Source: Ascidia mentula
Taxonomy: Eukaryota > Chordata > Ascidiacea > Phlebobranchia > Ascidiidae
NCBI GenBank assembly: GCA_947561715.1
Contig: OX387197.1
Coordinates: 24,950,266 to 25,014,265 of the forward strand
Length of the DNA stretch: 64,000 nt
Reading direction: 5' to 3'
Both the position numbers and the translations under genes were made by a program. This document shows positions 10,554-60,100 of this stretch, in pieces (position 1 is the first letter of the stretch; each line of letters opens with the position of its first letter). The notes under the pieces are model-generated. The model was given only the letters and a program-made list of their open reading frames with translations, made no database searches and was not told the origin of the DNA.

Positions 10554-10749
10554 TAGGCTACAGCAAAAATGTAGTGATGTATGTAATGTACCATATTTGC
10601 ATCAATTCCTTTAAATTAAAAAACACACCTTCCAGGTTCCTAAACCAATCATTGGGCATTCATATCCGCTGTTGAGTTTTGACGTTTTAACAGTAGGTAC
10701 AGTCGCCATTTTTGCTGTCATTGTTATGCCGAAAAATCGAATTTGCACC

Positions 10750-10985: not shown

Positions 10986-11020
10986 AATATAAAAAAGAAA
11001 ATAAACAACTTATTGCAAAA

Positions 11021-26200: not shown

Positions 26201-28350
26201 GATCAGATTGTTGGGGTTTCAGGTGAAAACAATATCGCAGAGACGTTGCTTCCGTTGCTCTCACTCATGACGATCAACTCCGTCAATTCTTCGCCGGTGA
26301 ACTACACGATGAAAATATCCGATTCAAATCTCGCTTCTGAGCGACTGACGGCAATGAGTGGAGATCGCATCCAGGGAGCTAGGATGAAATGCGTTTTCAT
26401 CAATGTGACGAACAGCAAGTGAGAATGTACCAAAGTGTTGCTATACAAGTTCAAATCAACTTAACAAGTGTAACAAAGCGAAAAAATTTAACAAATTTCA
26501 ATTAGACTACACAATATATCCCTAAACTTTGAAAAGGAAAGCCAAAGCTATAGGATTTCCTTTTGAAAGTTATCAACTCCAGATATTTTGCATCCAAATA
26601 TCCCTAAACATTTTCAAAATAATTTTTTTTTTTCTTCGAAGGTTTTCGACTTTTGGAATAAAAACCTTAAGTTCGATGGACAAGAATTTTATCTGTGTGT
26701 CCAATCACAGCACCGTATTTGCGGCCTTGCTCATTCTGGATGTTGTGCAAATACCGACTGGTGTGAAGGTAAACAAACAAACCGTAATGTAAATAAAACA
26801 AGCATTGTCGTTTTTTCAGCACATAATTTACTGCAGTATTTAAGGCCAGCGTATGTCACTAAAGATTAAATCAATTCACCTTAATCGCATCAGCTCATCA
26901 AAGCCATTAATATATACCCCACGGAAGTTACCTGATATTAATTTTTCTTCTGACTCTTTTGACGTGATGTAGATGGATTGATTTCAGTCTGTTGTAATCG
27001 GATTTATTTTCAGTTTTGAAAACAGCATAATACTTTGTATTTCTGTATTTCTGATAAGTCTTAAAACCGGTCTTGTTTTTTAAGAACCAAATATTTCAGT
27101 AAGAGATTGGGTTGGCAGTACACACTATATTGTGAAAGCAGAAAAATTGTCCCAGCTTTAAACGTGATCTTGCACTGTCGGGTTAAAAAACTACTTTGCA
27201 ACTGTGGCTCTGGGGTGCCACAGAACGCTTAATTTGATTAACGAGATAAGGACGCTTAATTTGACTAACGAGGTACTGCTATGCTTTTAATTCAAATAGA
27301 GTTAAATTAAGCAGTATTACGAACTTTACAGACCACGTCGTACGTATTGGAGACAGTGACGGTGGTTTCACTCGTATTGACGATCACCTTGCTGCTTGTG
27401 ATCAGAAAGAGGGTGAGGTCAAACCGAACATTTGTGCAAATAAACTTGTGCGTTGCCTTGTTTATTTTTCACTTCTTCATCCTCATCGGTGATTCGGCTT
27501 TAAACTCAAAACCTGTTTGTGAGATGACGGCTGTGTTGACGCATTACTTCATTCTATGTTCAGGTAAGATTGACTTTAAACTTAATATTAACGAATGTTA
27601 CACCATTACTCTACACAGCTATGTGGATGTTGCTCGAAGGAGTGACTCTGGCGAGAAAAACACTGGGAAATTCTCTTCATACATCCAACGCTAAGAAGGA
27701 AAGGCTTGTGAAACTTTTCATTGGCTGGATTTTGCCTGTTGTCATGGTTACCGTCTTCTCATTAGCTGGATTTCTCACTGGAAATTATATGGACACAAAC
27801 CCACCCTTGCTCGATGGAATCACTCAAATCAAACCATACTCACAATGCTGGATCAAGAAAGACTCGTGGGTCCTGGTTGCAGGAGTGGTGGTTCCCCTCA
27901 TTCTGGTGGTTGCGACCAACTTGTTGATTGCATTAAATGTCGGAAAGTTCGTTTACGATATGAGCAAGAAAGCAGAGGATTTCAAACCGACCAACGATCG
28001 AGTTCGTGCTGCCTCAAATGTAGTGGAGGCTAATTTGCTTCATGTCAAAGCAAGTTTTAGGGCTGTGTTGTTGCTGCTGCCAGTTCTGGGAATACCATGG
28101 ACATTCATGTTCATACAAAGTAAGAAGATGGGTTGAACGACTGTTGATGGCGTTTCTTATAATGTTTTCTCTCTCTACAGTAAACCACCCTGCCATGATG
28201 TACGTGAACGTGATATTGAACGGACTTCAGGGCTTCTTCCTTTTCATCATCTACTGTGTGATGAGCAAGGAGGTGAGAAGAGGTGTTGTGGATTCCTGGA
28301 ACAGAAGCCAGATGACCGATTCATTCAAACTTTCTTCCAGTTTTCGTTGA
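23243..28350 (+). CDS. Adhesion G-protein-coupled receptor with C-type-lectin-like ectodomain (copy 2)
   Basis: Ten exons join in frame to about 744 residues: 23243-23306, 23667-23828, 24839-25018, 25304-25543, 25690-25785, 25956-26418, 26642-26768, 27332-27563, 27619-28119, 28181-28350. Signal peptide MDTFWLLLLLSFPANV, then a C-type-lectin-like domain (SFDEARTFC, then LARIDSVNEF, then WTDGS, then HSFLCYKN). A longer Thr-rich stalk includes an extra 96-nt exon absent from copy 1. GAIN-like and GPS-like regions follow (MKCVFIN, then FICVSNHST), then the 7TM. The 7TM and GAIN exons are nearly identical to copy 1 while the lectin and stalk exons differ strongly. That fits ligand-facing diversification or gene conversion of the 3' half. 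The intron between 26768 and 27332 has a small tandem repeat (units starting ACGCTTAATTTGA). Confidence 0.9.
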
Positions 28351-35265: not shown

Positions 35266-38200
35266 TTACTTGCCTGGTAAATGTTCTGCGCTAGATGGAT
35301 AACGACCTGAAAAATAGATATATTTGACAGTTTACAAGGAAAATAAAGATACCAACATTTCCACTTACCAATTTGTTGGTGTGATGTGTCTTGTTGGGTG
35401 CTGGGCCCTTGATTTACATTGTTACCAGCTGTGTTGAAGTTTGGGTTGGAAAAATTTCCACCATAAAACATGTTACCTAGCCTTTTCGAACCAAAAATCT
35501 ATGTACCCACAGCACCAAAATAGCATTTGTTCTAAAACTAGCTGCTATTATCGACAAAGATTAAAATAAGAAATATACTTACTGACTGGTTGATTTGGTC
35601 TATTCCCCTCGGCAATATCAATCTGTAAAAATGTATAACAATGCCATTGTGCTCTTAAATACAATAGCAAATCTTACACATGGCGGAAAAGGGTTCTCAA
35701 AAAAGTTTCCTTCTTCATAGATAGGTGATTCATTCCACAATACCACAACCTCAAACTCAATATCTTCATTAAGAGTGCTTCTTCGCACAAGAAAAAACTG
35801 GCTTTCAGAAAATGGCCGTTTAAACATCTTTCTTAGAGTTTTGGATGTAGGTCTACACTGAACTCCAGAAGGCCATTTTTTCATTTTTAATGTTATGTCT
35901 TTAAACTTTGACCTAAATGCGGAAAAGCATAAACCAGCATAAAGGCACCTAAACATGTAAATTCTTACTTGATCTCTACGGTGTCGGTGAAGACGTTTTG
36001 TAGATCCTCTGGTTTGTCTTGAGAATATTTCCATAAATCAACACCAATGCTATCATAGAGAAAGATTTTCAAGACTCTCATTTTTGACCGTTCATCCTCA
36101 AACTTCTTGCGCAAGCGACAACTTAAGACCATGTGTTTTCTGTCATTTTTTTCACTGGATCCTGAATGGCTTTGGCAAATGCAGTTCATTACTAAATAGC
36201 ATTGTTATTGGTGTAACAGAAACAAGACTTACTATGTAAAATGAGGGACACAAAACTGCAGGGTTTTCTGGTGTTGGTGATAAATGGGCACAACTGTCTC
36301 CCATTCCAGCCCATCAATGCTCTGTTTAATCTGAAAAACATATTAATAGCTCTATTTAATTTATTTTCCCCAAAAATATTGTTTAAATTTCATACAGGTA
36401 CCATTTTTCCACAATACAACCATTTCTAGCAAAAAAATGTTTGAGTATGTGCAAGAACTGGGTTTACCAAAATCTGTTGGGGAACTTTGTAGAAGTAGCA
36501 GGTTGGCAAGGTTACTGATACTTCCTTGTTGAATTCTACATGACTTGGCTCACACTTCAACATTGGTGTTATTTGGTGCTGTAGATAGAGTATGTAAATT
36601 TTGTGTAGGTAAATGTTTTTCACATAAGTGCATAGTTACCGTTTCACTTTGTTTTCCATAATATGCAGTAACCTTTATTAATGTTGGTTTTTCTACAGCA
36701 CCACATGGGAAATCAACTCCACATCCCAGAACTTCACATTTTCCACCATTTGGTCCAATAAGAGCTGATGTTTGTTCAATATAGTTATAGTTATCCTAAA
36801 AATATACTTTTGAGTATTAAATTGTGTAATAAAAATACAAACGTAACTTTTATGAGTAAAATGGGCCGAAAAAATAAAATTATCCTTTTTCAGGTATAAA
36901 ATTTTAAGGCTGTGTGCAACATAATTAACTTTGGAACAAAATCAGGATTGTTTTTAAATCAGACCAACCCGATCTCTCAGTTTTTCCACTTGGTCAGCAA
37001 CAGTTTTGATTCCAAAGTCAGAAGTTTTCCAAGTGTTTGCAGAATTGCCAACTTGCACATAATTTTTAATGTTATGCAAACAGCTGGCAACATGCTTAGC
37101 ACCGCCATCACTGATGTCATTGTGTGCTAAATTTATAAAAGTCATCTGAAAAACAAATGCAAATTAATTGCTTGCCTACAATCACCTGGCCAAAGCAAAT
37201 AATCACTGAATATGGCCTCTTTTTAACTGCTTCAGCCAAATGACCAGCACCGTTGCATGATATACCACAATTTCCCACATCAAGATTGTCAAAATTGTTT
37301 AAACATGTTGCCAATACTTTTGCACCACCATCTTCAATGTAGTTGCCATTAAGGTCTAATAGGTTGATCTGCAGTTTAAGTATTTGTAATTAACTTCATT
37401 TGTCTGGGATATCAGTATTGAACAATAAAACGTACCGGGTTAGCTCTACGCTGCAGCACATAGGCCAGATTTTCTAAGTCACAAAGAGAAACTGATGAAT
37501 CACTGAGATCTAACTCATCAGGAAGGGATGAGGCAAGAGATGTTGTGATTTCAGCATTATTTGCTTCATGAACCCAACAACAAACTTTCTGTATGGTAGC
37601 TTTATTGGGTGGTTTGAGGTATGATTGAAGCAGTTTGGTAAGTAGCAACTTTTTTGAATGATAATCTTTAAAATTAAATCTGAAAGTGGTTGATTCCAAA
37701 CACTGAATGTCACCCAACAATTTATCATTACATAATCCAAAGCAAAGTCTGGTGAAGTATTTCCATCCATCAGTTGTGAGTTTTGTGTATTTTTTTTGGA
37801 ACTCATCTAAAGGCATGATCATCATCAGATAGATAACAGCAAAAAACTTTTGCCAGATATCATGCGAGAAACGTGAATGTTGATATGAATAATAGTTTAC
37901 TCGTTTCCCAAAAAACATGTTATCTGCGCATTTATCAAGTTTGGCTTGTCTTAAATCATCCAAGGAGAAGTATTCCTTTTCATTTTCCGTCCCTGTCCAG
38001 GCAAGTTCTGCCAAGTTGTACACCATGATGCCTGGGTCTTCATCAAAATAGATTTGCAAATTCTGGACCAAAATTGCAGCAAGTATTGGTGAAAGCAAAA
38101 CATTTTTTACTTCACTGTCATAGCGCATCAAGCAGTTCAGCAACAAAATGTAGTTGCATGGTACTTTGCAGCATTCTAATAAGAAAGGGTTTTGTTTTAA

Positions 38201-41200
38201 AATCTGCCTTATTGAATCATATTTTGCCCCACATATTTGTCGTCCAAGTTCTTCTTGTGAACTTGGAGGTAAACCAACAATTTCAAGAACAAATGTTGGT
38301 TTGTATAACTGATAAAGTTTGTTGAATGGACCAGGTCTTGATGTAAAAATCTTTCTGGATATTGGAAGCAAGTTTCCCTCAACCAACTGCCTTAAATAAA
38401 CATCTGGTGTGTTTTTTGAATGCAAAGAAGGAATGGATTCAACTTTTTTTGATAGAAGATCAACTGCTTTTCCAACTCCATCAAAAATAATGAAAAGATC
38501 TGAATCAGTTGTAATTACCTCAAGTATGTCTGCTTCTCCTTTGGGTGTGTATGTTTGGTCAGGCAACAATGTACAAAGAAGAAACTGAAGAAATGTCACT
38601 TCCACATCAAAATCAATTTTGCTGACATCAACATAAAAGGAAAAAGACACATTTCCATACAAGTTATGTTTAGTCCATGTTTTTAGTAAAGATGTTTTTC
38701 CAATTCCTGATTGGCCAACAATAAAAATCCTATTTCCATGTTTTTGCACATATTCTTCTTCTTCTTCTTCTTCTGCTTTAGCTTGGCCCAACCCAAATCT
38801 GCGGGGTATATTTCTCAATACTGCCCTCTTTGCATCCACAAACATTTTGGTAGGAGAAATTCTATCATATTTTTTTTCTCTTTTAGAAGTAAAAGAAAAA
38901 TTAAACAAATCATCAGGCATGATGTTGCGGACTATGGAAACTTCCACTGGTGTTATGGGACATTTTGATAAAATTGCAAGCGACAACTCTTTCTGGGCAA
39001 TTTGTAGAACCTTTTCTTTCAACAACAACTTCAGTTGTTCGCCTAATGATTTTTAAAATAAAAATGATGTAATAAAGACTTCTTATACTTCACAACAAAA
39101 ATATCAACTTCCCAAACAGAATTGTCCACAATAAACTTCATGCAATGTGTTAAATTAGGATTAGCGATATGTATGTTACCAAGGCAGCTGGAAATTGTGA
39201 AATAACAAAAAAACATTTTGCAAAGTGACAAAAACAAGTTTCCTTACAATGTTTTTGATCTTGTTTAGATGTGGATGTCAATGAGGCTTTTCCACAGCTT
39301 AAAATGACTGAATGCTGTTGTTTATAGGAAAGACCATGTTCCTTTGACAAAACCTTCAAAAATATAAAAGGTTTACAAACGTTCGAATAAACTTTCCATG
39401 TATGTGCCCACAGTTCCCGGCAACATTGCCACTTTGTCTGATAGTTCATTAACAGCTTGAATGGTTAGATTGCATCCTTCCAGTTCCAATTCATCAATGT
39501 TGTGGATGCAATGTGCCAGTGCATGTCCACCCATATCTCCAATATTGTTGTGGGAGAGGTTGAGTTTCTTCAGCTGATGGCAAAAAAATCTTTGCAATTA
39601 TTAAAATAGGTTATTTGATACAATTAAAAAACAATCCCGTTTTACAAAAATGTGCAACCAAAGTACGGAAGTTGAAACAAAAAAATAAACCTGCTCGCAA
39701 GACAAAATTACATGAAAGCACAAAATAGAATAAAAATTCTATGACACCCGTAATGGCCCATTTCAGTAGTGGGATTCAACAAGTTTTAATGACCTAAATG
39801 AATCTGTTGTTAACAACCGAATGTGTGGACCTTTGATTTACTTTGAGCACTGTATTCCCGTGGTTAATATATGGTATGCTGCTAGTGAGATAAATGGTAC
39901 TAAAATATTTGCATCCCACCACTTGCCCATTTCATCAATCAGCAGTGATTAAAATGTGAGAGAACTAAATTAATGATATTAAAATGTTTTTATAGTTTTT
40001 GACAATCAATCTTTTTGAACAGTCTACTTATTACAAAGTTAGTCCTACATACCGATAAAATATTATAAAAACATTATACAAACATTCTAAAATAAAAACT
40101 GTTTTGGCCCAAGTTATTATGGGTCAGTGACAGTGTGAAGATGCAATAAAAGCCCTTTTTCATAAAATCCACTGAATCCATGACATAAAACGTACTATAA
40201 ACATTAGTATGTAAAATATTCAAAATTGTGGACTTATGAAATGCTACTGCTATGTCAAAAAGCTACAAGTTATAATTTGATGTTACAGTCACTGCTTTCA
40301 TAAAAGCAAACAATATAATAGGCTCTTTGCTATACTCCATACTATCACATCTAATCCAAAACTAACAAAATATTTCAAAGGCATGATAGTTGCACAACAT
40401 TCAAAGAAAAATTGCTTTACCCATTAGTATAGACAATATTCAAAATTGTGGAATCATGAAATCCTACTGCCATGTCAATAACCTTTAAGTTAAAATTCGA
40501 TGTTACAGTCATTGCTTCCATAAAAGCAAACAACATAATAGGTTCTTTGCTATACCCCATACTATCGAATCTAAACTAATTCAAAATTTAACTTGTAGGT
40601 TTTTAACATCGCAGTTCCCATTCTATCAAATCCAATCCAAAACTACCAAAATAATTCAAAGGCATGATAGTTGCAGCACATCTAAAGCAAAGGGAAAAAA
40701 TTAGTGCATGAGAAGCATGAGGTTGGCCACACATAATATATAAACAAACTTCGAGGTATTCAGCAAAAAAAACTTGCAAGAAAATAGATAAGTGATTTTT
40801 TGAAGTTCTGAGGAATTAGCAAGAAATTTTATAAAGTGTAGACTCTAATCAAATCATGCATTCAATTCCAGCAATCCTATTAGTTGGATTCCTAACAAAG
40901 AAATTGGAAAAAACAATTTTGTATCTATAAGAAGGTAAAAGACTTTGAAATGATACAAACATAAACTCAGTTAACAGAAGGACACACAAGCAGCAAAGTA
41001 TGCAAATAAATCCAAGAACATTTAGATTATATTACATTTATAACACAAACAGTGATCTTACAGGTTCTGGCAACATTGCAATTCTGTGTGATAGATAATA
41101 AAGAGTACGGTGAGTTAAGTTGCATCCTTCCACTTCCAATTCTTCAATGTTGTTGATGCAATTTGCCAGTTTATGTCCACCCAGATCACCAATATAGTTG

Positions 41201-44200
41201 TGGGAGAGGTTGAGTTTCTTCAGCTGAAGGCAAAACAAAACATTGCAATCATTACATTAAGTTATTTGATACAATTAAAAATATTACAGTTTCACAAACA
41301 CACAAAAATGTGCAACCAAAATATAAAAGTAGAAACAAAAAATATACAAAATATAATCAAAGTGCAAAATATATTGAAAACTAGTTGGTTCTTAGGGCAC
41401 ATTTGGTTGCTAACAACCGGCACCTACATGGACCGGTTGTTAGCAACCAAATGTGCACAGACCTATGTTTCACTGCGAGCACTGTATTATGCAGTTAATA
41501 TATGACATGCTGCTAGTGAGAGAACAGATGCTATAATATTTGCATCCCATCACTGGCCCATTTTATCAGTCAGCAGTGATTAAAAAGTGGGGGAAACTGA
41601 AGTAATAACAACAAAACTTGTTTTTAGTGTTTTAGAAATGACCCTTTTGAACAATCGACTCATTACAAAGTTGGTCCTACATATTGGACAAAAAATAATT
41701 AAATCCTAAAAAGAAAACTGTTGTGTCCCAAGTTATTATGGGTCAGTGTGGAAATGTAATAAAGGTCCTTTTTCATAAAATCCACTGAAACCATAACATA
41801 TAACATACTTTACCCATTAGTATAGACAATATTCAAAATTGTGGAACCATGAAATGCTACTGCTATGTCAAAAACCTGCAAGTTAAAATTTGATGTTACA
41901 GTCACTGCTTTCGTAACAGCCAACAATATAATGGGCTCTTTGGTATACCCCACACTATCAAATCTAATCCAAAACTAACAAAATAATTGATAGTTGCAGC
42001 ATATCTGAAGAAATCGGGGAAAATGATGCATTAGAAGCATAAGGTTGGCCACCCCTGATATATAAAAAAACTTTGAAGTTGTTGGGAAAAAAAAACTTGC
42101 AAGAAAAAATGTATGAGAATTTTTTAAGTTATCAGTAATAAAAAGAAATTTGATAGAGTGTAGACTGTAATTAAATCATGTATTCAATTCCAGCATTCCT
42201 TTTGGTTGAATCATCAACAAAGAAATTAAAAAGAAAATTTTGTATCTATCAAAAAAGTAAATAGCTTTAAAATGATACAAATATAAACTTAGTTAACAGA
42301 AGTAAACACAAGCAGCATAGTCTGCCAATAAATGCAAGAACATTTAGATTATATTACAAACACAACACAAACAGTGATCTTACAGGTTTTGCAAATCTGT
42401 GTGATAGATAATGAGGAGTTCGGTGAGTTAAGTTGCATCCTTCCACTTCCAATTTTTCAATGTTGTGGATGCAATTTCCCAGCGCAAAACCACCCATATC
42501 TCCAATATTGTTGTGGGAGAGGTTGAGTTTCTTCAGCTGGAAGTAAAAAACATCGCAATTATCTCATTAGATTATTTGATACAATAAAAAATCCAGTTTC
42601 ACAAACACACAAAAATGTGCAACCAAAGTATGAAAGTTAGAAGAAAAAAATAAACAGTACACATACAAAATAAAATGAAAGTATGAAATACAACAAAACT
42701 AAAATAATGACAATAAACCTTTCAAACAATCTACTCATTACAAAGTTAGTCATGCATATTGGACAAAAAAATTAAATCCTAAAAACATCATGTGAAGATC
42801 TTGAAAAGAAAATTGTTGTGGCCCAAGTTATTGTGGGTCAGTGTGGAGATGTGATGAAGAAATTTTTATAAAATCCACTAAAACCATTTTATAGAACATA
42901 CTATAGCCATTAGTATAGATAGTATTAAAAACTGTGGAGTCATGAAATCCTACCATCTTCACATTCACATATTATATGTTTTTTCTAAATAACTGATGCA
43001 AAAAGTGACCAGAATATTCTGCTGCACACAAAAGGATGTCATGAACTGGAAAAGGTTAAAAAACACTGCTGAACAGAAAATGAAAAAATAATCGGGAAAT
43101 GCCAACTAGGTAGTCATTTGCAATAAAATAATTCTAGTCAAAATAAAATAAGAAAAATATGCATTGAATGTTCTTTTGGGGCTCAAGCCTGTTCCGCATT
43201 ACAAAAACATTGTGCAACAGTTGTGCATTTCTACAACAATACACACAAAGTGAAACCAACCTATGGCATTTTGCAACGCTACAGACAACACACTATAACC
43301 CAGAGATGCATTCTAATGAAATATCACTTGTAGCTAGAATTGGGATTACTGAAATTTTTAAATCTAATCTAAAATAAAAAGGGATGAGAGTTAGGACACA
43401 TCTGAAAAAAAAACATTGGTGCATGAGAAGCATATGGTTGGCCACCCCTGATATACAAATAAACTTAGAGGTTGTCAGCATAAAAACCTTGGAACAAAAA
43501 AGTTGTGAATTGTGGCCCAAGTTATATTAGGTCAGTGTGGAGATGTAATAAAGAACTTTTTTCAAAAAAATTCACTGAAACCATAACACAAAACGTACTA
43601 TAATAACCATCAGTATAGAAAATATTCAAAATTGTGGAATCAAGAAATCCTACTCCAAGTTTGATGTTACAGCCTGCAAGTATGATGTTACAAGTTGATG
43701 TCTAAAACCTAAAGTTGAAATTTGATATTGCAGTCACTGCTTTCATTAAAGCCAACAATATAAGCACAACAAAGCAAAATAAATTTAATTATCAAGGATG
43801 GAAAAAAGACTACAATATGATAGCTGTGATCAACAAGTATGGACCTGCACAGTGGGGCGATCCTGCCTTGTCATGCGAAAGCTTAAAACACTTCTTTGCT
43901 ACTACTAGGTTAATGAGTCTTTTAATCCTTTTCTTAAACTTGGCATCACTGTGGTTTTATCAGAAAACCCCTTGACAAAAAGTTAACCAGTTTCAATATG
44001 ATCAGATTGCTTGGCAATTGTAGTGTAATGGTTGTAACAGTGATTCAACTCTTAAGTTGTAGGTAATACAGAGGCCACAGATTTTGCAATGAAATGGGGA
44101 GAAGAGGTTTGTTAAACAACTAACCAAATATTTAGAAATTGGCCATAAACTTACAGAAACCATCTTCACATTAACATATATCTTTTTTCTAAATAAACAA

Positions 44201-47200
44201 TTAAAATAGAGACCAAAATATTATGTTGCACACAAAAGGGTGTCATCAACTAGAGAAGGTTAAAAACACTGCTGAACAGAAAATGAAAAATTCTTTGTAT
44301 TTTCCACATACGTTGTGCCCAGACAAAACAAAGAATTTAAATATTTTTTTAAAACGCAGACTAGGTAATCATTTACAACAAAAATTTTTACTGATGAGAA
44401 AAATTTGAATTGAACGTTCTTTTTTGGCCTTTGCCTATTATCCACTGCGAAAATATTTTGTAACTGTGGTTCAATTTTCTAGCAATATATACCAGGGTTA
44501 GCCAACCTATGGCATATTGTATCACTACAAGCAACACACTATACCCAGTGGAGAATAAAAAAACATGCCTCGTCATGACAAAAAATTAAATTCACTGATT
44601 TTCAGAAGAAAATTATAAAATAAATACATATCACTAGAACTGGGAATCCTGAAATTTTTTTCAAATCTTATCTAAACTTAAAATTCGAAGGCATGATAGT
44701 TGTGGGACATCTGAAAAGTGGGGAAATAATAATGTATGAGAAGCATAAGGTTGGTCACCCCTGATATATAGACAAACTTTGAGCTTGTCAGCACAAAACC
44801 TTGCAACAAAAAAAGTTATGTGAATTCTTTAAAAGGCTTTGAAATAATACATGCATGAACATTTAGAATATAATACAATTAAAATACAAACAGTGATCTT
44901 ACAGGTTTTGGCAACTTTGCAATTTCATCAAATAGACCATTAACACCAAAGCCTTCTAGATCGCATCCTTCCAGTTCCAACTCTTCAATGTTGTGGATGC
45001 ACTTTGTCAGTGCATACAAATCCCTATCTCCAATATAGTTGTGCGAGAGGTTGAGCTTTTTCAGCTAAAACCAAAAATATGTTACAATTATTACATTAGA
45101 TTTTTCAAATTAAAATGTCGGAGAACTAAAAAATAACATAAAAAACAAATATATTTAGTGTTTAGACGGTGAACATTTTAAAGAATCTACTCAATACACC
45201 GTTAGTCCTGCATACTGGACAAAAAAAATTTAAATCCGAAAAGATTATGCAAAAATCCTAAAAAGAAAACTGTTGTGGCCCAAGTTATAACGGATCAGGG
45301 TGGTGATAAAATGATGAACTTTTGTCAGAAAATCCACTGAACCCATAACATAAAATGTACTATAACCATTAGTACAAACAATATTTAAAATTATGGAATC
45401 ATGAAATCCTACTGCGATGTCCAAAATTTACAAGTTAAATTTGATGTTACAGTCACTGCTTTCATAACAGCCAACAATATAAGCACAACAAAGCAGAATA
45501 AATTCAATTATCAAGGATGGTAAAAGATATGTAATTAATACAGGGTGGTCAATGTAATTACTGCGAACCAAATGACTTCAATATGATAGCTGTGATGAAC
45601 AAGTAAAACCTGCACAGTGGGGCGATTCTGCCTTGTCATGCAAAAGCTTAAAACACTACTTGGCTACTGTAAGGGTAATAAGTAATTTAATCTTGTTCAT
45701 AAACTTGGCATCACTGTGGTTTTATCAGAAAACCACTCGACAAAAACTTAACCAGTTTCACTATGATCAGATTGCTTGGCGGTTGTAGTGTAATGGTTGT
45801 CCAATTAAATGGAGTGAATTTAGTCACAATGAGAATCCGTTGAAACAAACAGGGCCAAACTGATCATTACACATTTTGACAGTGATTCAACTTTATGTTG
45901 TTGGTATTGAAGAGGACAAAGATTTTTTAATGTAATGTCGAGAAGAGGTTTGTTAAACAACCAATAACATATTTAGAAGTTGGCCATACGGTTACAGCAA
46001 CCATTCTCACATAAACATATGTATTTTTTCTAAATAAACGATTAAAAGAGAGACCAAAATATTATGTTGCACACAAAAGGGTGTCATGAACCAGAAAAGG
46101 TTAAAAACACTGCTGAACAGATAATTAAAATTTCCTTGTATTTTCCAGATACGTGGAGCCCAGAAAAAACAACAAAGATAGATAGTTTGTAAAATGCCAA
46201 CTAGGTAATCATTAAAAACAAAATAATTTTACTCAACATTTGAATTGAATGTTCTTTTTGGACTCTTGCCTATTATCCACTGCAAAAATTTTTGGGACTA
46301 TGGTTTAATTTTCTAACAATATATGCCAGGGTTAGCCAACCTATGGCATATTGTATCACTATAAGCAACACACTATACCCCTTAGATCAGTGGTTCTCAA
46401 ACTGTGGTACGCGTACCCCTAGAGCTTTTCAAGTGGTACGCGATTTAGTCTACTCTATACAATTTGCCGCACTTTGCAGAAGCCAAAACCACTGCAAATA
46501 CATGATGTAGGTTTTTTTATTGTGTATTTGTGACGCAATAGTATCAACGTGAAATTGTTGCACTGTTGAAGTAATTCTGACATCGTGTATACAACTGTGA
46601 AACAATTTCACGTTGATACTATTGCGTCACAAATACACAATAAAGAAAACCGACATCATGTATTTGCAGCGGTTTTGGCTTCTGCAAAGTGCGGCAAATT
46701 GTATAGAGTACACTGATTTTCACAAAAAAAATTATAAAATAAATTTAAATCACTTATAGCTAGAACTGGGAATTCTTTTTTTTTTCAATATAATAGTGTA
46801 TGAGCAGCATAAGGTTGGTCATCCCTGATACACAAATAAAGTTGGGGTTGTCAGCACAAAACCTTGCAACAAAAAATGTTACGTGAATTCTTCATTAAAG
46901 CTATTAGGATAAGAACAGAAATCGATGGAATGTGGATTTTCATTAAATTATGTATTAAATTTCAGCATTCCTATTGGTTGAATTCCTAAGAAAGAAACTG
47001 GAAGAAAAGTTTGTACCTGTAAACTAAAAGGCTTTGAAATAATACATGTTTGAACTTAGTCACTAGAAGTAAACACAAGCAGCATAGTCTGCAAATAAAG
47101 AACATTTAGATTATATTACAATCACACCACAAACAGTGAACTTACAGGTTTTGGCAAATTTGCAATTCCATGTGATAGATAAAAAAGAACAAAGTGTTTT

Positions 47201-49347
47201 AGGTTGCATCTTTCCAGCTCCAATTTTTCAATGTTGTGGATGCACCCTGTCAGTGCATATCCACCCCCATATTCAATATTGTTGTGGGAGAGGTTGAGCT
47301 TTTTTAGCTGAAAGTAAAAGTTCATTATAATGAAAGGCGGTGTGATACAATTAAACTCAAATTTCACAAACACAAAAAACTGAACAACCAAAGTATCAAA
47401 GGTAAAACAATTATTACAACATACAAAATATAATGACATGGCATATGGCACCCAATAATTTTTTTCTTTAAACCAGCAGTCAAAAAAATGTGACAAATCA
47501 TCACTAATTATTTATACACCTCTCCTATATCCAAATTTTGTGTTATAGATTTTGTTTAACATGCATTAAAAAGTATACTAGAAATATTCAGTTGTTGCGA
47601 CAGTATGATGATTTTGCCATCACAAAAATAAAGTAATAAGAATAAACCACTACACTAGGAAAAATAACAGAAAATAATGTGTTTTGTGCATAATTAGTGG
47701 GGAGTGAATTGAGGAACGCAGAGAAATGTAAAAACCATTTTTTTTTGGGCAGAATTGTAAAAAATAAGTTCTTAGAGAAGAGTGTAAACATTGTGTTTGT
47801 TAGTCCCGAATATCGGATCATAGCAGTTAGATTTTGCCTCACTTCTTTGTGTAAACAGTGTGTTTGGAAATTTTGCTTCACTTCTTTGCGTTGTTCAGTT
47901 ATGATGAGACATAAATTAAACAACTGGAACTCTCACAGGAGTGCAAAATACATAAATTTTACTCAATGAAAATGGGTTGTTCATAGCCAAGAAATGTCTA
48001 TTAATATCAATCTTGCTTTACAGCTTTCCTTGCATGATAATAATAATTTCAAAGGTAGTCGAGAATGCTTGGAAGGTAAACTAGTGGTGATGTAAAGGCC
48101 GTGTGGTAAGAAAAAGATTTAAAAATATTGTAAGTAGGAAATAAACCAACTGTTGGATATCAGACAATTTGGTCAAAAATAAGAATCTGAGGTGTTTTTT
48201 TTTTTTAGGTTGATTAATTAGACTTCATCATTCACTGGATTCAATGTAAGAGAGCTGTAAAGATTTAATGGCACCTGCATGGAGGTTTTTCTGCACTTGA
48301 AAATAAACATCACGCTTCATAAAAACAGATAGTTCTCACTGGTTTTGGTAATCCAACAATCTTTTCACACAGCTCCTCAATATCCTTCACAGTAAGTTCA
48401 CAGTTACTCAAATCAACTTCCTCCGTAAGGTTAGAAAAGTTGCTCAATGCTGCTTTTGAATTTATAACTTTGTTGCTGGATGATTTAGGCTTCTGAAAAA
48501 AGGTGACACACATAATCTTATATCGGAATGCCTGGGGTGACAAGCCCCTGTCTCGTCCAAAAATCTTTTTTGTAGCAACAAAATTATTTCTCTTAATCTT
48601 TCATAAAATAAATTTTGGATTTTTATCTATAATATGGTGACTTGACTATATATTGACTATCTAGGAGATGAACTAATGTAGCTGTGTCGAAGTGAAAGTA
48701 GTAGTATATTTCCAATGCAAAATCTGTAAAAATTTTTGTTTACAAGGTGAAAACCACCCCATTTGAAAAAAATTGTTGACAATGGTGCTTCTTAGTAGGG
48801 ATGCATCGAAAATTCGGTTTGCCAAATTTGTTTTGGACAAAACTATGATTTTTACAATTCAGTTTTGGCTGAACATTTCAGCAAAATTATGCCAAAACTG
48901 AAAATGTTACAGCATGCATTGCTGATATGCAAGGTTTAGTATAGGTTAGAATCATTGTTTAACCTGTATAAATGTGTTCGATTTATTTGTTTATTGTCAC
49001 AGAAATGATGAAAGTCAACTTTGTAGTTGGTATAACATTCGGGGTTATTCTTTAAGTGCCGATAAAAGAGTGGAGGATAGGAGTACATTCCATCCAGTAT
49101 ATACATGTTTTGTTAATGGATACCAAAGTTTTTTCAGCTGAATTTATATGGCATAAAAAATTGCATTTTCGGTGCTTTTCACCACAAATGCCTAAAAAAG
49201 TGAAATAAATCAGCAAAATTTTTTTTTTAATAGTTCTAGGACATTATAAATGTTTATCATCTTCAAATACAGCTTTTTTACCTGAAAGTATCCTTTTGAC
49301 TTGGCATCCTTTCGACTTGAAATTGGCCTTTGTTTACTAAAATCCAT
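35266..49347 (-). CDS. NLR-type protein: LRR-NACHT-LRR-ZU5-UPA
   Basis: Nineteen exons join in frame to about 1,353 residues: 49347-49282, 48492-48340, 47307-47146, 45064-44903, 42536-42384, 41223-41062, 39573-39412, 39353-39248, 39042-37436, 37368-37207, 37145-36969, 36795-36640, 36578-36468, 36330-36233, 36169-35969, 35912-35678, 35622-35583, 35476-35369, 35306-35266. Residues ~74-340 are five LRR exons (LKKLNLSHNNIGD type). The NACHT has Walker A GQSGIGKT (~485), Walker B LFIIFDG (~558) and FTSRP (~608). Two LRR exons follow, then ZU5 (LIGPNGGKCEVLGCGV, then FCVPHFT), UPA-like (KMRVLKIFLYDSIGVDLW) and an Asn-rich tail (NPNFNTAGNNVNQG). ATP-dependent cytosolic sensor by family analogy. The N-terminal LRRs and the junction acceptor at 36169 are the weakest joins. 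An alternative first exon starts at 49884 (49884-49851 to 49355), giving 1,367 residues. Confidence 0.8.
43255..43455. mobile_element. MITE copy with AACCTATGGCA / GGTTGGCCACCCCTG ends
   Basis: Left end AACCTATGGCATTTTGCAAC and right end ATGGTTGGCCACCCCTG. Related to the copies at 44491 and 46326 and to right-end remnants near 40720 and 42050 in the neighbouring LRR cassettes. Terminal form resembles hAT-type MITEs. Confidence 0.55.
44491..44762. mobile_element. hAT-like MITE, fullest copy
   Basis: Begins CAGGGTTAGCCAACCTATGG and ends with AAGGTTGGTCACCCCTG, giving imperfect terminal inverted repeats. About 270 bp, non-coding, in the intron between LRR exons 5 and 4 of the NLR gene. Confidence 0.65.
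46326..46831. mobile_element. hAT-like MITE interrupted by a second element
   Basis: Same ends as the copy at 44491 (CAGGGTTAGCCAACC and GGTTGGTCATCCCTG), but its middle is replaced by the fold-back element at 46387-46718. Confidence 0.6.
46387..46718. mobile_element. Fold-back hAT-type MITE nested in another MITE
   Basis: Starts CAGTGGTTCTCAAACTGTGG. Two long inverted arms (about 46450-46560 and 46600-46712, sharing for example TTTGCCGCACTTTGCAGAAG and its complement) surround a short loop. Terminal sequence resembles the CAGTGGTTCTCAAAC ends of hAT elements. The RNA would form a hairpin of about 110 bp. Confidence 0.7.
48796..49205. mobile_element. hAT-like MITE (GGGATGCATCGAAA end), copy 1
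   Basis: Starts GGGATGCATCGAAAATTCGG, resembling the GGGATGCACCGAAA terminus of some hAT elements. Shares internal blocks (TTTATTGTCACAGAAATGATG, shortened) with the copy at 49968. Lies in an intron of the NLR gene. Confidence 0.5.
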
Positions 49348-51143: not shown

Positions 51144-54100
51144 ATGACTTCGGCTTTTAGTTCAAACGACGTTGAAGTACTTTCCCGTGGTGTAGAAGTA
51201 GATGAAGCCGCACCACTTGCAACGTCTTTGTGGGAAATGTATGAGATTTCACGCTGCGCAAAATATATCAAGGTTTGATTGTTAAACTGCAACTTGTGGA
51301 ACGCACTGGCGCATAAACCATAAAGTATTGTCTCCGAGCAACTACTGAAATTGAAAATTTTGTCACACAGAGAGTTCATCTTAATTAAAATACAGGGTCT
51401 AGTGTACTATTGTACGTACCTATCTTCTAAAAATCGGGGAACCCCCAAATTACGTCACAATGAAGGTGGGGTCAAGTTATGACGTCACACCAAAAATTAC
51501 GTCACTGTGACGTCACTAACCGAAGATATGCAACGACGAAGTTTCTCGCCCACACACACATACGCGGTTCTCCTGCAGGCACATGAAGGTCGGCAAAAGG
51601 CACAACAGCAACGAAGAAATACATTTTTACGCTTCATTGATTACATAATGAAACAAACCTGTGAGAAACTTGAAATTGGGTACGATCAACCACAAGGGTG
51701 CGTAAACCAACATATGAAAAAATGAAAGTCGTGGTTAAGGCGCTTTAGCGCCGTTGGCGGTAAACAAGTCCCAAAGTATACATCCATACGTACCAATAAA
51801 GGAGACGTCACACAAACTTTAAATTTGGTACAGACAACCACAAGGGTGACTACACCAACATACTAAAAAGTTAACTCGATACCACTTTATTGACCCTTTG
51901 TTTATTGACGACAAATATTTGTTTGTGACGTAACAATTACATTTAAAGTCGATTTTAATCCGTTCTCGAATATTATAAACAAGAGTCCCTCCTTGACAAT
52001 CGAGCCCATTCTCAACACAATCCAACAAGTATTTCTCTCAAAAATCATCAAAACTTTAACCGACGTTAACACGCTTTAGCGACGTTGGCGGTAATAAGGT
52101 TCCATAGTGTACAATTCTACGTAACAATGAAAAAGACGTTGTATAAACTTGAAATTAAGCACAAACAACCAGAAGGGTTTCCACACCAACATACTAAAAA
52201 ATTAACCCGATACCACTTTATTAACCTTCTCTAAATGAACGATAAACTTTTATTTGTGACGTAACAATTACATTTTAGGTCTATTTTATTCGGTTGTTGT
52301 ATATTATAAATAAGAGCTCCTCCTTGACAATCGAGCTCATTTTCAACGAAATCCAACCAGTATTTCCTTCAGAAATCATCAAAACGTCAACCGAAGTCGA
52401 CGCGCTTTGGCGACGTTGGCGGTAATAAGGTTCCATAGTGTACAATTGTACGTAACCATGAAGGAGACATTGTACAAACTTGAAATTTGGTACAGACAAC
52501 CACAAGGGAGTCTACACCGACATACTAAAAAATAAACCGAATACCACCTAATTAACCCTTTCTTAATCGACAACAAACTATTGTTTATGACGTAACAATT
52601 ACATTTTAAGTCTATTTTAATCGATTGTCAAATATTTTAAAAACGAGCCCCTCCTTGACAATCGAGCCCATTCTCAACAAAAACCAACAAGTATTTCTCT
52701 CAAAAATCATCTAAACGTCAACCGAAGTCGACGAGCATTAGCGCCGTTGGCGGTAATAAGGTTCCATAGTGTACAATTGTACGTAACCATGAAGGAGACG
52801 TCGTACAAACTTGAAATTTGGCATAAACAACCACAAGGGATCCTACACCAACATACTAAAAAATTAATCCGATACCACTTTATTAACCATCTCTAAATCA
52901 ACAATAAACTTTCATTTGTGACGTAACAATTACATTTTAGGTCTATTTTATTCGGTTGTTGTATATTATAAATAAGAGCCCCTTCTTGACAATCGAGCCC
53001 ATTCTAAAGAAAAACCAACCAGTATTTTTCTCAAAAATCATCTAAACGTCAACCGAAGTCGACGCGCTTTGGCGCCGTTGGCGGCAAAAAGATCCCATAG
53101 TGTACAATTGTACGTAACCATGAAGGAGACATCGTACAAACTTGAAATTTGGTACAGACAACCACAAGGGTGTCTACACCAACATAGTAAAATCTTAATC
53201 CGATACCACTTTATTAACCCTCTCTTAATCGACGACAAACTAGTGTTTATGACGTAACAAACATATTTTAGGTCTATTTTAATCGGTTGTCGAATATGTA
53301 AAAGAAGAGCCCCTTCTTGACAATCGAGCCCATTCTCAACAAAAACCAACAAGTATTTGTTTCAAAAATCATTAAATTGTCAACCGACGTTAACACGCTT
53401 CAGCGACGTTTACGGTAATAAGGTTCCATAGTGTACAATTCTACGTACCCATGAAGGAGACATTGTAAAAAACTTGAAATTTGGTACAAACAGCCACAAA
53501 TGTGTCTATACTAACATACTAAAAAATTAACCCGACACCGTTTTATTAACCTTCTCTAAATCAACAATAAACTTTCATTTGTGACGTAACAATTACATTT
53601 TAGGTCTATTTTATTCGGTTGTTGTATATTATAAATAAGAGCCCCTTCTTGACAATCGAGCCTATTCTAAAGAAAAACCAACCAGTATTTTTCTCAAAAA
53701 TCATCTAAACGTCAACCGAAGTCGACGCGCTTTGGCGCCGTTGGCGGCAAAAAGATCCCATAGTGTACAATTGTACGTAACCATGAAGGAGACATCGTAC
53801 AAACTTGAAATTTGGTACAGACAACCACAAGGGTGTCCACACCAATATAGTAAAATCTTAACCCGATACCACTTTATTAACCCTCTCTTAATCGACGACA
53901 AACTAGTGTTTTTGACGTAACAATTACATTTTAAATCGATTTTAATCCGTCCTTAAATTTTATCAAGAAGAGCCCCTCCTTCACAATCGAGAGTACTTTT
54001 AATAAAATCCAACGAGTATATCTTTCAAAAATCATTAAAACGTCAACCGACGTTAACACGATTTAGCGACGTTTACGGTAATAAGGTTCCCATAGTGTGG

Positions 54101-57100
54101 AATTGTACGTAACCATGAAGGAACAACCACAAGGGTGTCTACACCAACATAGTAAAATCTTAACCCGATACCACTTTATTAACCCTCTCTTAATCGACGA
54201 CAAACTAGTGTTTTTGACGTAACAATTACATTTTAAATCGATTTTAATCCGTCCTTAAATTTTATCAAGAAGAGCCCCTCCTTCACAATCGAGAGTACTT
54301 TTAATAAAATCCAACGAGTATATCTTTCAAAAATCATTAAAACGTCAACCGACGTTAACACGATTTAGCGACGTTTACGGTAATAAGGTTCCCATAGTGT
54401 GGAATTGTACGTAACCATGAAGGAACAACCACAAGGGTGTCTACACCAACATAGTAAGATCTTAACCCGATACCACTTTATTAACCCTCTCTTAATGGAC
54501 GACAAACTTTTGTTTGTGATGTAACAATTGCATGTACTCCTCTTCTGGCATAAAATAACGTACTGTATTTCTTCGGCGTTTCGTCTGCCATGCGGCGAGA
54601 CTTCATCAGGTATAATGCAAAAAGTGAACTGCACTAAAACACGCAGGGACACAAAAGAAAAAAGGACACCTTGACACCGCTTGTCAAATCACGTGCTAGA
54701 GGCAAAAACGCCAAACATTGCAGGAGACACAACAGTTACAACAAATTATTATAAACTGTCGGAAAGAAAGCACATTGTTCTTTGTCGTTGACGCACCCAC
54801 TATTTTTGTGGATGTGAAGCAACTCAAGAAACAGCCGCTTGGAGTGGTCCAACTCCTTCTCCAGAACTTGGGCTTTATCGAAGACAACTTCGTGTCGCAA
54901 TGTCACCGCACGCTTGGACAACGCAGTCTTGCTGGCATCTTTCGATGCGACATCAACAATTACAGTTTACAACTGTTTTGATCGACTCCTAATTATTATC
55001 AAGAAAAACTCCTCTTTGACAATCGAACCTATTTCCGCACTGTAATATTTTTATGTTATTTGAGATTTTCCAACTGCACCCTTGAGGTAATCTCCATGCA
55101 GTCGTTAGGGTTTTTTGCAGCAGGACCCTTCGCCATTAGCCATATTTTACCTGCACGAGAGTTAGGTTTTTTGCAGCAGGCCCCTTCGCAATTAGCCATA
55201 TTTTACCTGCACGAGAGTTAGGTTTTTTGCAGCAGGCCCCTTCGCAATTAGCCCTATTCTACCTGCGCACATGCGTCTTCCGCAACGGGAACGCCAGTCT
55301 ATCTGAAAAACTACATTCGTATAAACTGTTAAAATGTACCACATTAATCACACTTACATTTACACTTGATATTTTGGATTAGTGCTGATGGCCAGCACCA
55401 AATCATGGAAATAGTGCGACTTCGGTCGCCTCTGACGCCACATGAATTCGTCCAGGTACGTCGGAATATAGTCCCGATGGACACCATTTTTTGGCGTAAC
55501 TGGCGTTTAGCCGCCGACCACAGGCTTTCTATGGTGTTAGTGTGGACGCCTTGAAATTTTCAAGTCATTTGAAGGCAGATACAGCAAATGACAGCCGTGC
55601 ATCATCTTTTTGCAGAGGGCACGACCAACGCGCCTTCCGCGCGCAAAATGCGCTACGATGGTAACTGTGTGTTTCAATATTTGAAAAACGACAAGACTTA
55701 AACAAAAACTGTTTTGACAGGTCATCTCCGTCTGCATTGTAGTTAACTTGTTGAAAATTTCAAGTCATTTGAAGGCAGATACAGCAAATGACAGCCGTGC
55801 ATCATCTTTTTGCAGAGGGCACGACCAACGCGCCTTCCGCGCGCAAAATGCGCTACGATGGTAACTGTGTGTTTCAATATTTGAAAAACGACAAGACTTA
55901 AACAAAAACTGTTTTGACAGGTCATCTCCGTCTGCATTGTAGTTAACTTGTTGAAAATTTCAAGTCATTTGAAGGCAGATACAGCAAATGACAGCCGTGC
56001 ATCATCTTTTTGCAGAGGGCACGACCAACGCGCCTTCCGCGCGCAAAATGCGCTACGATGGTAACTGTGTGTTTCAATATTTGAAAAACGACAAGACTTA
56101 AACAAAAACTGTTTTGACAGGTCATCTCCGTCTGCATTGTAGTTAACTTGTTGAAAATTTCAAGTCATTTGAAGGCAGATACAGCAAATGACAGCCGTGC
56201 ATCATCTTTTTGCAGAGGGCACGACCAACGCGCCTTCCGCGCGCAAAATGCGCTACGATGGTAACTGTGTGTTTCAATATTTGAAAAACGACAAGACTTA
56301 AACAAAAACTGTTTTGACAGGTCATCTCCGTCTGCATTGTAGTTAACTTGTTGAAAATTTCAAGTCATTTGAAGGCAGATACAGCAAATGACAGCCGTGC
56401 ATCATCTTTTTGCAGAGGGCACGACCAACGCGCCTTCCGCGCGCAAAATGCGCTACGATGGTAACTGTGTGTTTCAATATTTGAAAAACGACAAGACTTA
56501 AACAAAAACTGTTTTGACAGGTCATCTCCGTCTGCATTGTAGTTAACTTGTTGAAAATTTCAAGTCATTTGAAGGCAGATACAGCAAATGACAGCCGTGC
56601 ATCATCTTTTTGCAGAGGGCACGACCAACGCGCCTTCCGCGCGCAAAATGCGCTACGATGGTAACTGTGTGTTTCAATATTTGAAAAACGACAAGACTTA
56701 AACAAAAACTGTTTTGACAGGTCATCTCCGTCTGCATTGTAGTTAACTTGTTGAAAATTTCAAGTCATTTGAAGGCAGATACAGCAAATGACAGCCGTGC
56801 ATCATCTTTTTGCAGAGGGCACGACCAACGCGCCTTCCGCGCGCAAAATGCGCTACGATGGTAACTGTGTGTTTCAATATTTGAAAAACGACAAGACTTA
56901 AACAAAAACTGTTTTGACAGGTCATCTCCGTCTGCATTGTAGTTAACTTGTTGAAAATTTCAAGTCATTTGAAGGCAGATACAGCAAATGACAGCCGTGC
57001 ATCATCTTTTTGCAGAGGGCACGACCAACGCGCCTTCCGCGCGCAAAATGCGCTACGATGGTAACTGTGTGTTTCAATATTTGAAAAACGACAAGACTTA

Positions 57101-60100
57101 AACAAAAACTGTTTTGACAGGTCATCTCCGTCTGCATTGTAGTTAACTTGTTGAAAATTTCAAGTCATTTGAAGGCAGATACAGCAAATGACAGCCGTGC
57201 ATCATCTTTTTGCAGAGGGCACGACCAACGCGCCTTCCGCGCGCAAAATGCGCTACGATGGTAACTGTGTGTTTCAATATTTGAAAAACGACAAGACTTA
57301 AACAAAAACTGTTTTGACAGGTCATCTCCGTCTGCATTGTAGTTAACTTGTTGAAAATTTCAAGTCATTTGAAGGCAGATACAGCAAATAATATTTAAAC
57401 ATTGTTCATTGCAACGGATTCCTGGGTGTATCAAGCCAGTTTTTGGTAAACTGCCTGTAAACTTATACATATCAGTATTTACTGCGTTATGAAAATGCCA
57501 CAGCATGGCTTTTTACCTTACCTTATTTGGCCAAACCATAAGTTGAAACTATTACCTTGTTTGGTAATATCAACTTCATTATAAGGACGTTGATAATGGC
57601 CTTTGTTTCGCAATATCCCCTACACTTTTTCTCATTCTTTCAATGAAATAGCGAGCAATCTGCCATGTGGTTTTTATTGCAAATTCAACATGAATTCGTT
57701 GGTAGGCATAAATGCTCGGCAACTATCGCTCTGCGGAGCTTTGCTTTATGTGGAGGATGCGATTAAATTTGCGCGGCAGTACAGGCTGTTGGCCAACAGT
57801 CACTCTTGTGTCTGTGGTACGCTGATGATGGAACAACGCCTACGGGCAAGCAAAGATGGGATAATATGGAGATGCCCGGACCAAGTAAGGGTTAGGGTTG
57901 ATTTGCATTTCCCGTTGTCTTCTCCAAATTTAGGAAATGCCCAGAAGAAGTTGCGTTAACATACACTTCCTATAGTTGCCTTCATGCTTGCAGGAATGTC
58001 GAAAACGAGTCTCCGTTCGGACAGGATCGTTCTTCGAAGGAAGCAACCTGTCCATGGTTCAACTGCTTACAATTCTGTACTATTGGGCTGAGGGACGGAG
58101 TCAGGAGGCGATCGAGAAAGAGGCAGAAATCTCTAACAAAATTTCTGTTGATTGGTGTGGATTTCTCCGAGAGGTGATGGTTTTACCATTTAAATAGGTT
58201 GTTTAATACTTATTTACAAGGTTTACACTGGCATCATGCAGATATGCACAGAGGACCTTCTGCGGAATCCATGCATCATTGGAGGCCCAGGACATGTCGT
58301 CAGCATCGACGAGTCCTTGGTTGCTAAGAGAAAGCCTTGCGCGAACGCCCAGGCTCGCCCGATTCCGCAGCAGTGGGTTTTCGGTGGCATTGATGTGGAA
58401 ACCAAGTACTTTTTTAAAAGCGTGTTAATTGCATTTTGCACAGAACTATTTTGACAGGGACTGTTTTATGGAATTGGTTCCTTCGAGGGACCAAGTAACC
58501 TTGGAGGCAGTTATACGCCGACACATTTTGCCCGGCACAGAAATTTGGTCCGACGAGTGGCGGGCCTATAACAATTTAGGAAGTAACTTCACTTAAGTGA
58601 CCAGTAGATGTAGTTTTTTTAAACGTGTGTTTTTGCATTTGTAGACATCGGATATACTCACAGAACAGTGAATCACTCTGTGCAGTATGTTACGTCACAA
58701 GGCGTCCACACTAACACCATAGAAAGCCTGTGGTCGGCGGCTAAACGCCAGTTACTCCAAAAAAATGGTGTCCATCGGGACTATATTCCGACGTACCTGG
58801 ACGAATTCATGTGGCGTCAGAGGCGACCGAAGTCGCACTATTTCCATGATTTGGTGCTGGCCATCAGCACTAATCCAAAATATCAAGTGTAAATGTAAGT
58901 GTGATTAATGTGGTACATTTTAACAGTTTATACGAATGTAGTTTTTCAGATAGACTGGCGTTCCCGTTGCGGAAGACGCATGTGCGCAGGTAGAATAGGG
59001 CTAATTGCGAAGGGGCCTGCTGCAAAAAACCTAACTCTCGTGCAGGTAAAATATGGCTAATTGCGAAGGGGCCTGCTGCAAAAAACCTAACTCTCGTGCA
59101 GGTAAAATATGGCTAATGGCGAAGGGTCCTGCTGCAAAAAACCCTAACGACTGCATGGAGATTACCTCAAGGGTGCAGTTGGAAAATCTCAAATAACATA
59201 AAAATATTACAGTGCGGAAATAGGTTCGATTGTCAAAGAGGAGTTTTTCTTGATAATAATTAGGAGTCGATCAAAACAGTTGTAAACTGTAATTGTTGAT
59301 GTCGCATCGAAAGATGCCAGCAAGACTGCGTTGTCCAAGCGTGCGGTGACATTGCGACACGAAGTTGTCTTCGATAAAGCCCAAGTTCTGGAGAAGGAGT
59401 TGGACCACTCCAAGCGGCTGTTTCTTGAGTTGCTTCACATCCACAAAAATAGTGGGTGCGTCAACGACAAAGAACAATGTGCTTTCTTTCCGACAGTTTA
59501 TAATAATTTGTTGTAACTGTTGTGTCTCCTGCAATGTTTGGCGTTTTTGCCTCTAGCACGTGATTTGACAAGCGGTGTCAAGGTGTCCTTTTTTCTTTTG
59601 TGTCCCTGCGTGTTTTAGTGCAGTTCACTTTTTGCATTATACCTGATGAAGTCTCGCCGCATGGCAGACGAAACGCCGAAGAAATACAGTACGTTATTTT
59701 ATGCCAGAAGAGGAGTACATGCAATTGTTACATCACAAACAAAAGTTTGTCGTCCATTAAGAGAGGGTTAATAAAGTGGTATCGGGTTAAGATCTTACTA
59801 TGTTGGTGTAGACACCCTTGTGGTTGTTCCTTCATGGTTACGTACAATTCCACACTATGGGAACCTTATTACCGTAAACGTCGCTAAATCGTGTTAACGT
59901 CGGTTGACGTTTTAATGATTTTTGAAAGATATACTCGTTGGATTTTATTAAAAGTACTCTCGATTGTGAAGGAGGGGCTCTTCTTGATAAAATTTAAGGA
60001 CGGATTAAAATCGATTTAAAATGTAATTGTTACGTCAAAAACACTAGTTTGTCGTCGATTAAGAGAGGGTTAATAAAGTGGTATCGGGTTAAGATTTTAC

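Follow-up and report, generated by a model that had tools for sequence, protein, structure and literature searches.

A NACHT-LRR-ZU5 gene family with an NLRP1-like domain order and a conserved tail motif in the ascidian Ascidia mentula

We analyzed a window of 64,000 nt from the Ascidia mentula genome (assembly GCA_947561715.1, contig OX387197.1; C1:24950266-25014265 in our numbering). On its minus strand lies a gene of the NLR type, here termed gene A, in which a short 5′ exon is followed by a NACHT exon, two LRR exons, a ZU5 domain, a region at the position of UPA, and a tail with a short conserved motif. An NLRP1-like order, NACHT-LRR-ZU5-(UPA), had been proposed for this invertebrate gene in a preliminary description of the window, and it recurs in the same genome, both in tandem copies and at two distant loci (L045 and L046). 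To our knowledge, FIIND-type control has been described chiefly for vertebrate NLRP1 and CARD8. Tunicates are the sister group of vertebrates, and an NLRP1-like order in a tunicate would point either to an earlier origin of such control or to repeated origins. We give about even chances to the view that gene A specifies an intracellular NLR of the form NACHT-LRR-ZU5-UPA-motif, which would cleave itself and free a UPA-motif fragment that nucleates a filament.

All nineteen exons described previously were recovered, with matching count and end points: seven upstream (49347 to 39412) and twelve downstream (39307 to 35266) (Table 1). The downstream exons, which make up gene A, splice into a single frame of 1000 codons, ending in TAA (35268-35266) with AATAAA at 35263-35258. 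Acceptors 36154 and 35476 were picked because the next AG upstream would bring in a stop codon; the matching acceptors are present in paralogue U2. A search for the true start codon of gene A found none; by eye, 5/5 copies keep a Met near codon 41 of the NACHT exon. The last exon has a possible donor (AA/gtaagc) at the stop codon, and a further 3′ exon beyond the stop is possible. That NACHT, LRRs, ZU5 and tail form one gene is supported by their order in the copies and by the first ZU5 exon, which has no start codon ahead of the domain and is entered in phase 0, the exit phase of the LRR exons. An alternative assignment of ZU5-UPA to the N-terminus of the downstream gene B was thought unlikely, because the gene A TAA and AATAAA lie at 35268-35258 and gene B has first exons of its own. 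Gene B (33010-29400, minus strand) is an NLR paralogue that has LRR exons and carries GDTNINTSGPVFN as its N-terminal motif. By eye, no P-loop is visible in its NACHT exon, the remainder is spread over two frames, and gene B therefore looks broken.

Searches with hidden Markov models (HMMs) for NACHT, ZU5 and UPA, a check proposed along with the original model, were positive for the first two domains. NACHT was matched in gene A at 1.7e-14 (Pfam), with GQSGIGKT as Walker A and FDGVGK as Walker B, and LRRs follow, the arrangement that defines an NLR. A NOD2_WH match in the NACHT exon (0.0056) fell short of the Pfam cut-off. LRR_6 matched the upstream LRR block at 5.3e-13 and 6.4e-10 and the downstream LRR pair at 5.3e-5, exactly at the cut-off. 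The acidic pair of the extended Walker B (DGxDE) is absent from the cluster, where 5/5 members have DG[VA]GK, versus DGVDE in 22 of the 23 readable other NACHT members (2/25 were unreadable by pattern); L046 has DGVNE. This change bears on ATP hydrolysis rather than kinship. The cluster NACHT may bind ATP without normal hydrolysis, a property that would suit a receptor whose switch is the loss of the N-terminal part. Between the two copy groups, omega was 0.61–0.74 for NACHT codons 1–40 versus 0.54–0.78 past codon 100; within groups there were too few changes, and some ratios exceeded 1. Because codons 1–40 look as constrained as the rest, an upstream coding exon is probably joined to the NACHT exon.

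Four NACHT paralogues lie in tandem on the same strand (89, 89, 70 and 69 percent identity), and these and gene A all have LRR6, LRR7 and ZU5 downstream, although in two of them the stretch separating LRR7 from ZU5 was unread for 0.9 and 0.5 kb. A sixth tandem unit, L044 (C1:25020000-25025300), passes from an upstream LRR exon directly to LRR6-LRR7-ZU5-UPA-tail and has no NACHT. Of the distant loci, L045 and L046 are NACHT-LRR-ZU5 (LRRs by eye), and L047 is LRR-ZU5-tail, the 7 kb read there containing no NACHT. Across the genome (195.8 Mb, 79 contigs), at least 84 matches to the NACHT exon were listed, itself and split pieces included (79/379 candidates scored). Among the matches listed, 11/83 ZU5 places have a NACHT within 20 kb upstream. 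Given this ratio, NACHT may be lacking from most of the listed ZU5 genes; L044 and L047 are examples, as far as they were read. Arrays of ZU5 exons with no listed NACHT nearby were seen at C70:2.09-2.64 Mb, C71:17.0-17.6 and 19.06-19.16 Mb, and C52:21.2-21.4 Mb; one locus among them, L047, is that read as LRR-ZU5-tail.

The ZU5 of gene A scored just under the Pfam cut-off (0.00098; 19.8 bits versus 21). Three of the four relatives scanned exceeded it (L046, 3e-6; L047, 5.5e-7; tandem unit U3, 1.9e-4), and L045 stayed under it (0.0018). Against the PDB, a seven-member ZU5 profile matched Ankyrin-2 at 5.9e-6 for the whole chain, in which two ZU5 domains are summed (best single domain, 0.011), ZO-1 at 0.0063 and UNC5B at 1.2, along with chance-like matches to MRT4 (0.058) and bromodomain proteins (0.16 and 0.22). 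A four-member profile gave Ankyrin-2 alone (0.89), and phmmer with a single ZU5-UPA sequence gave no PDB match. The region that follows is a candidate UPA by virtue of its position after ZU5 and its conservation in tandem copies. In an excerpt of PMC3210808, the UPA of NLRP1 is likewise described as aligned less confidently.

At the end of ZU5, HF is invariant across seven sequences (alignment A3). The nine copies read continue with T (five copies), S (three) or A (one); gene A has HFT, three sister units HFS, and L045 HFA. Threonine is able to serve as the cleavage nucleophile in adhesion G protein-coupled receptors (GPCRs). Because HF precedes S or T in 8/9 copies, self-cleavage of ZU5 is plausible. 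The same excerpt gives the cleavage sites as HF/S for PIDD and SF/S for CARD8 and NLRP1 (PMC3210808). The HFA-bearing L045 (C71:12435500-12443500) is a NACHT-LRR-ZU5 gene and perhaps a non-cleaving member.

As described previously, no death-fold domain is visible: Pfam found none in the gene A tail at E values up to 1, and no CARD in the ZU5-to-tail protein at the same limit. Genome-wide, Death gave 17 matches, the nearest 51 kb from a listed ZU5 place and on the other strand; CARD and DED were not searched genome-wide. The tail has a conserved motif of 14 residues, FSNPNFNTAGNNVN in gene A and FLNPTFSTAGKDVS, CPISTVNTAGRDVT and INNSTFNFAENDIN in sister units. It was read in 6/6 cluster units and also in L046 (LNNSNVNTSGSSLT) and L047 (LIEPHINIAGGSVN). 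In a leave-one-out test, a profile built from five tail motifs recovered the sixth in every case, and at most 3 of 2000 shuffles (0 to 3) scored as high; the test is partly circular, because the windows had been hand-aligned beforehand. The L046 tail had 18 genome matches, its own place included, and 15 of these lay at most 3.1 kb downstream of a listed ZU5 place; an even spread would predict ∼0.05 percent for 2.5 kb, and the true chance is higher because the places are clustered.

A somewhat similar motif stands at the other end of related receptors. N-terminal exons resembling GDTNIHTTGPVYN occur in gene B and at three other loci. An initial pattern search of 30 loci for this motif found none, probably because the motif exon is often more than 1.5 kb from NACHT. 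In a genome search, 13 of 20 matches (query included) were followed within 7 kb by a listed NACHT in the same orientation, versus an even-spread expectation of ∼0.3 percent. The remaining seven comprise one in gene B, two at L050, two at L051 and L052, and two that lie 13 and 16 kb away. At L050 (C52:5836200-5846000), the motif HFGDTNIHTTGPVYNAP precedes a STAND ATPase in two tandem copies (NB-ARC match of 4e-6 in the copy scanned). L051 and L052 have exons with the common ending ..QIQGK or ..EIQEK, far from any listed NACHT. When the C-tail profile was run on four N-terminal exons, its best site was the N-terminal motif in 4/4, with 9, 76, 26 and 36 of 2000 shuffles reaching the score; for three control proteins these numbers were 401, 538 and 1251. 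These results suggest, but do not prove, a link between the N-terminal and C-tail motifs. In gene A the motif was not seen at the N-terminus; a similar one stands at its C-terminus, the place of CARD in NLRP1.

We envisage that ZU5 would self-cleave at HF/T (HF/S in sister copies), with the two pieces staying associated. The N-terminal piece, NACHT plus LRRs, would be both sensor and lock, and its destruction or rearrangement would free the C-terminal UPA-motif piece. UPA would then cluster the freed piece, the tail motif would nucleate a filament, and the filament could recruit partners with a similar motif, for example the motif-NACHT receptors that this genome also encodes. On this view the upstream LRR array would fall in a different transcription unit, perhaps as an operon partner or as an isoform lacking NACHT. 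A broader proposal, possible in our judgment though doubtful, is a non-vertebrate inflammasome logic in which self-cleaving ZU5-UPA NLRs would set free a UPA fragment with an amyloid-type signalling motif, new for metazoans, as its tail. The N-terminal motif of NACHT/NB-ARC receptors in the same genome would be its counterpart, and the two classes would talk by templating and not through death domains.

Several results weigh against these views. No UPA or FIIND match was found in four UPA-region sequences at E values up to 10, or in the four members of alignment A1 at E values up to 5, so this part of the earlier domain assignment drew no HMM match. Peptidase_S68 reached at best 0.057, in one of four members. 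Given Thr at the nucleophile place in gene A and Ala in L045, cleavage may be lost in some copies. The tail motif was not recognised in L045, the N- and C-terminal motifs are alike only weakly, and the four N-terminal exons are kin. No motif-bearing effector was found beyond STAND proteins. Finally, no ZU5 was found in the 1.5-kb downstream flank of 25/25 other NACHT loci (L011-L035), and among the matches listed, 11/150 NACHT places are followed by ZU5 at a distance of no more than 20 kb, which in three cases amounts to 12 to 17 kb. Plain NACHT-LRR looks commoner than NACHT-LRR-ZU5.

The preliminary description had also placed the upstream LRRs ahead of NACHT in the same protein, with consistent splice phase throughout. 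Phase is indeed consistent across the twelve exons from 39307 to 35266, but it was not confirmed for the junction from 39573 to 39307. The LRR exons exit in phase 0, and the NACHT exon of gene A, like that of the four paralogues, starts in phase 1; all 8/8 distant NACHT members inspected have an AG at the matching phase-1 place. On an approximate donor matrix, the phase-1 GTs of the LRR5 exon score 2.5, –3.0 and 0.2, and its phase-0 GT scores 3.9; the range among the other junction donors that were scored is 3.3 to 9.3. The exon has a stop of its own, with AATAAA (L009, L010) or TATAAA (L006-L008) ∼47 nt beyond. The exon just before NACHT (39307-39248), ending ..QDQKH T/gtaagg, resembles the motif exons ..LVQKK T/gtaaga (L038) and ..QIQEK T/gtaaga (L039), and is likely homologous to the last part of the N-terminal exon typical of the family. 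Exon 2 of the block, which by eye resembles the LRR cap ending the NACHT exon, occurs at nine places in the cluster versus five listed NACHTs. From the stop, the poor phase-1 donors, the type of the pre-NACHT exon and the exon-2 copies, we conclude that the upstream block is probably a separate gene, perhaps derived from an NLR that lost its NACHT. A single long transcript LRR(5)-NACHT-LRR(2)-ZU5-UPA-tail, with LRR5 spliced to the 60-nt exon, therefore seems quite improbable to us, even though LRR5 lies ∼0.5 kb ahead of NACHT in 5/5 tandem copies, the constraint on NACHT codons 1–40 makes an upstream coding exon probable, and L044 passes from an upstream LRR exon straight to LRR6. An 8-nt microexon, CTGCCTTG, that would link LRR5 to NACHT in phase was rejected because L009 and L010 have lost its acceptor. 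The end of the LRR5 query was reached by the five pre-NACHT copies only, among 149 matches listed (150/450 candidates scored). LRR5 and its flanks are near-identical between copies whose NACHT differs by 30 percent. This suggests gene conversion in the region, which makes conservation there weak evidence of function.

Two other readings keep ZU5 and tail in place and change what surrounds or employs them. In one, the LRR exon at 41223 skips LRR5 and NACHT and joins LRR6-LRR7-ZU5-UPA-tail, all in phase 0, the NACHT form coming from a start site of its own. L044 has that very order, with no NACHT exon between LRR exon and LRR6, L047 is a NACHT-less LRR-ZU5-tail in the stretch read, and the LRR junctions are in phase 0. 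Yet the NACHT frame is intact in 5/5 copies, with omega of 0.41–0.78 past codon 100, and we regard such an isoform as unlikely. In the other, ZU5-UPA is not cleaved and has only the structural role of an adaptor that it has in ankyrins, and the tail does no more than link. The nearest solved relatives are indeed the ZU5 domains of ankyrin and ZO-1, and the HFA of L045 would fit; but S or T follows HF in all other copies read, no ankyrin-repeat match was found among the pieces scanned, and the tail motif is kept in relatives. We rate the adaptor as rather unlikely.

The proposed self-cleaving receptor resembles NLRP1 (PYD-NACHT-LRR-FIIND-CARD) and CARD8 in its NACHT-LRR-ZU5-UPA order, in a cleavage-type motif at the ZU5 end and in a signalling part expected at the C-terminus. 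Gene A differs in having a short motif instead of CARD and HFT (or HFS) instead of SFS, in the absence of a visible PYD, in its tandem copies and in the loss of the Walker B acidic pair in its clade. PIDD1 (LRR-ZU5-UPA-Death) shares LRRs directly ahead of ZU5, an HF/S-type site and a likeness to the NACHT-less LRR-ZU5 stretches of L044 and L047, but gene A has NACHT and no Death domain. An excerpt of PMC12909245 mentions that early animals have NACHT-ZU5 proteins, a likeness that extends here to the presence of NACHT and ZU5 in one invertebrate protein. Excerpted text of PMC8195603 describes TRADD-N proteins fused to FIIND or UPA-ZU5, similar in their ZU5-UPA module and predicted autoproteolysis, whereas no TRADD-N was recognised in gene A, although no specific search was made. 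Amyloid-motif NLRs of fungi and bacteria and metazoan RHIM, as presented in parts of PMC7889193 and PMC12261475, offer a parallel: a short N-terminal motif on NACHT/NB-ARC STAND proteins and a somewhat similar motif at the C-terminal end of another receptor. Their sequence differs. In a metazoan NLR survey, ascidian NLRs are given as NACHT-LRR or NACHT only (PMC11508797), and our literature search, in a limited paper collection, found no paper joining ZU5, NACHT and tunicates. What is new is the combination of NACHT-LRR-ZU5 with a tail motif and tandem copies.

Table 1. Exons of gene A and of the upstream LRR block (window positions; slash within letters, exon boundary)
Feature	Position	Strand	Remarks
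Upstream LRR block without LRR5	49347-49282, 48492-48340, 47307-47146, 45064-44903, 42536-42384, 41223-41062	-	Probably separate gene
LRR5 exon with own stop	39373..39573	-	TAA 39375-39373; stop conserved in 5/5 copies
Short 5′ coding exon of NACHT gene	39248..39307	-	Phase 1 out (..SKQDQKH T/gtaagg); open in 5/5 tandem copies, donor conserved
NACHT exon, winged-helix-like region and first LRR cap	37436..39042	-	Pfam NACHT 1.7e-14
LRR exon 6	37186..37368	-	Phase 0 in and out; conserved in 5/5 NACHT copies of cluster
LRR exon 7	36969..37145	-	Joins ZU5 at ..DR/DNY; conserved in 5/5; similar junction in L045 by eye
ZU5 exon a	36640..36795	-	Pfam ZU5; present in tandem copies
ZU5 exon b	36468..36578	-	ZU5 continuation
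ZU5 exon c, ends PHFT(Y)	36233..36330	-	Place of PIDD HF/S cleavage site
UPA-position region, exon 1	35969..36154	-	Position after ZU5 and conservation in tandem copies; without HMM support
UPA-position region, exon 2	35678..35912	-	Position after ZU5 and conservation in tandem copies; without HMM support
Linker exon	35583..35622	-	Phase-consistent
Tail exon with motif FSNPNFNTAGNNVN	35369..35476	-	Leave-one-out profile test, 0/2000 shuffles
Last coding exon and stop	35266..35306	-	AATAAA 35263-35258

Other features of the genome and window were recorded. An excerpt of PMC7986045 describes a 16-base spliced leader of Ciona intestinalis with at least 670 gene copies. The Ciona spliced-leader sequence plus GT occurs at 1070 forward and 1253 reverse places in the A. 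mentula genome (at most one mismatch), versus 0 and 1 for the reversed pattern, and these places include arrays ∼720 bases apart. By this leader the genome reads as that of an ascidian close to Ciona. Within the window, a very large inverted repeat (51395-55492 / 58760-63216) has arms spanning ∼4.1 and 4.5 kb, parts of which are 97–100 percent complementary. An open reading frame (ORF) at 58194-58454, between the arms, looks by eye like a Merlin/IS1595-type transposase. Pieces of aldo-keto reductase-like ORFs were seen on both strands at 500-16500, and LDLa-type and C-type-lectin/adhesion-GPCR-like gene pieces, two of which are tandem copies, at 10988-28350, all by eye.

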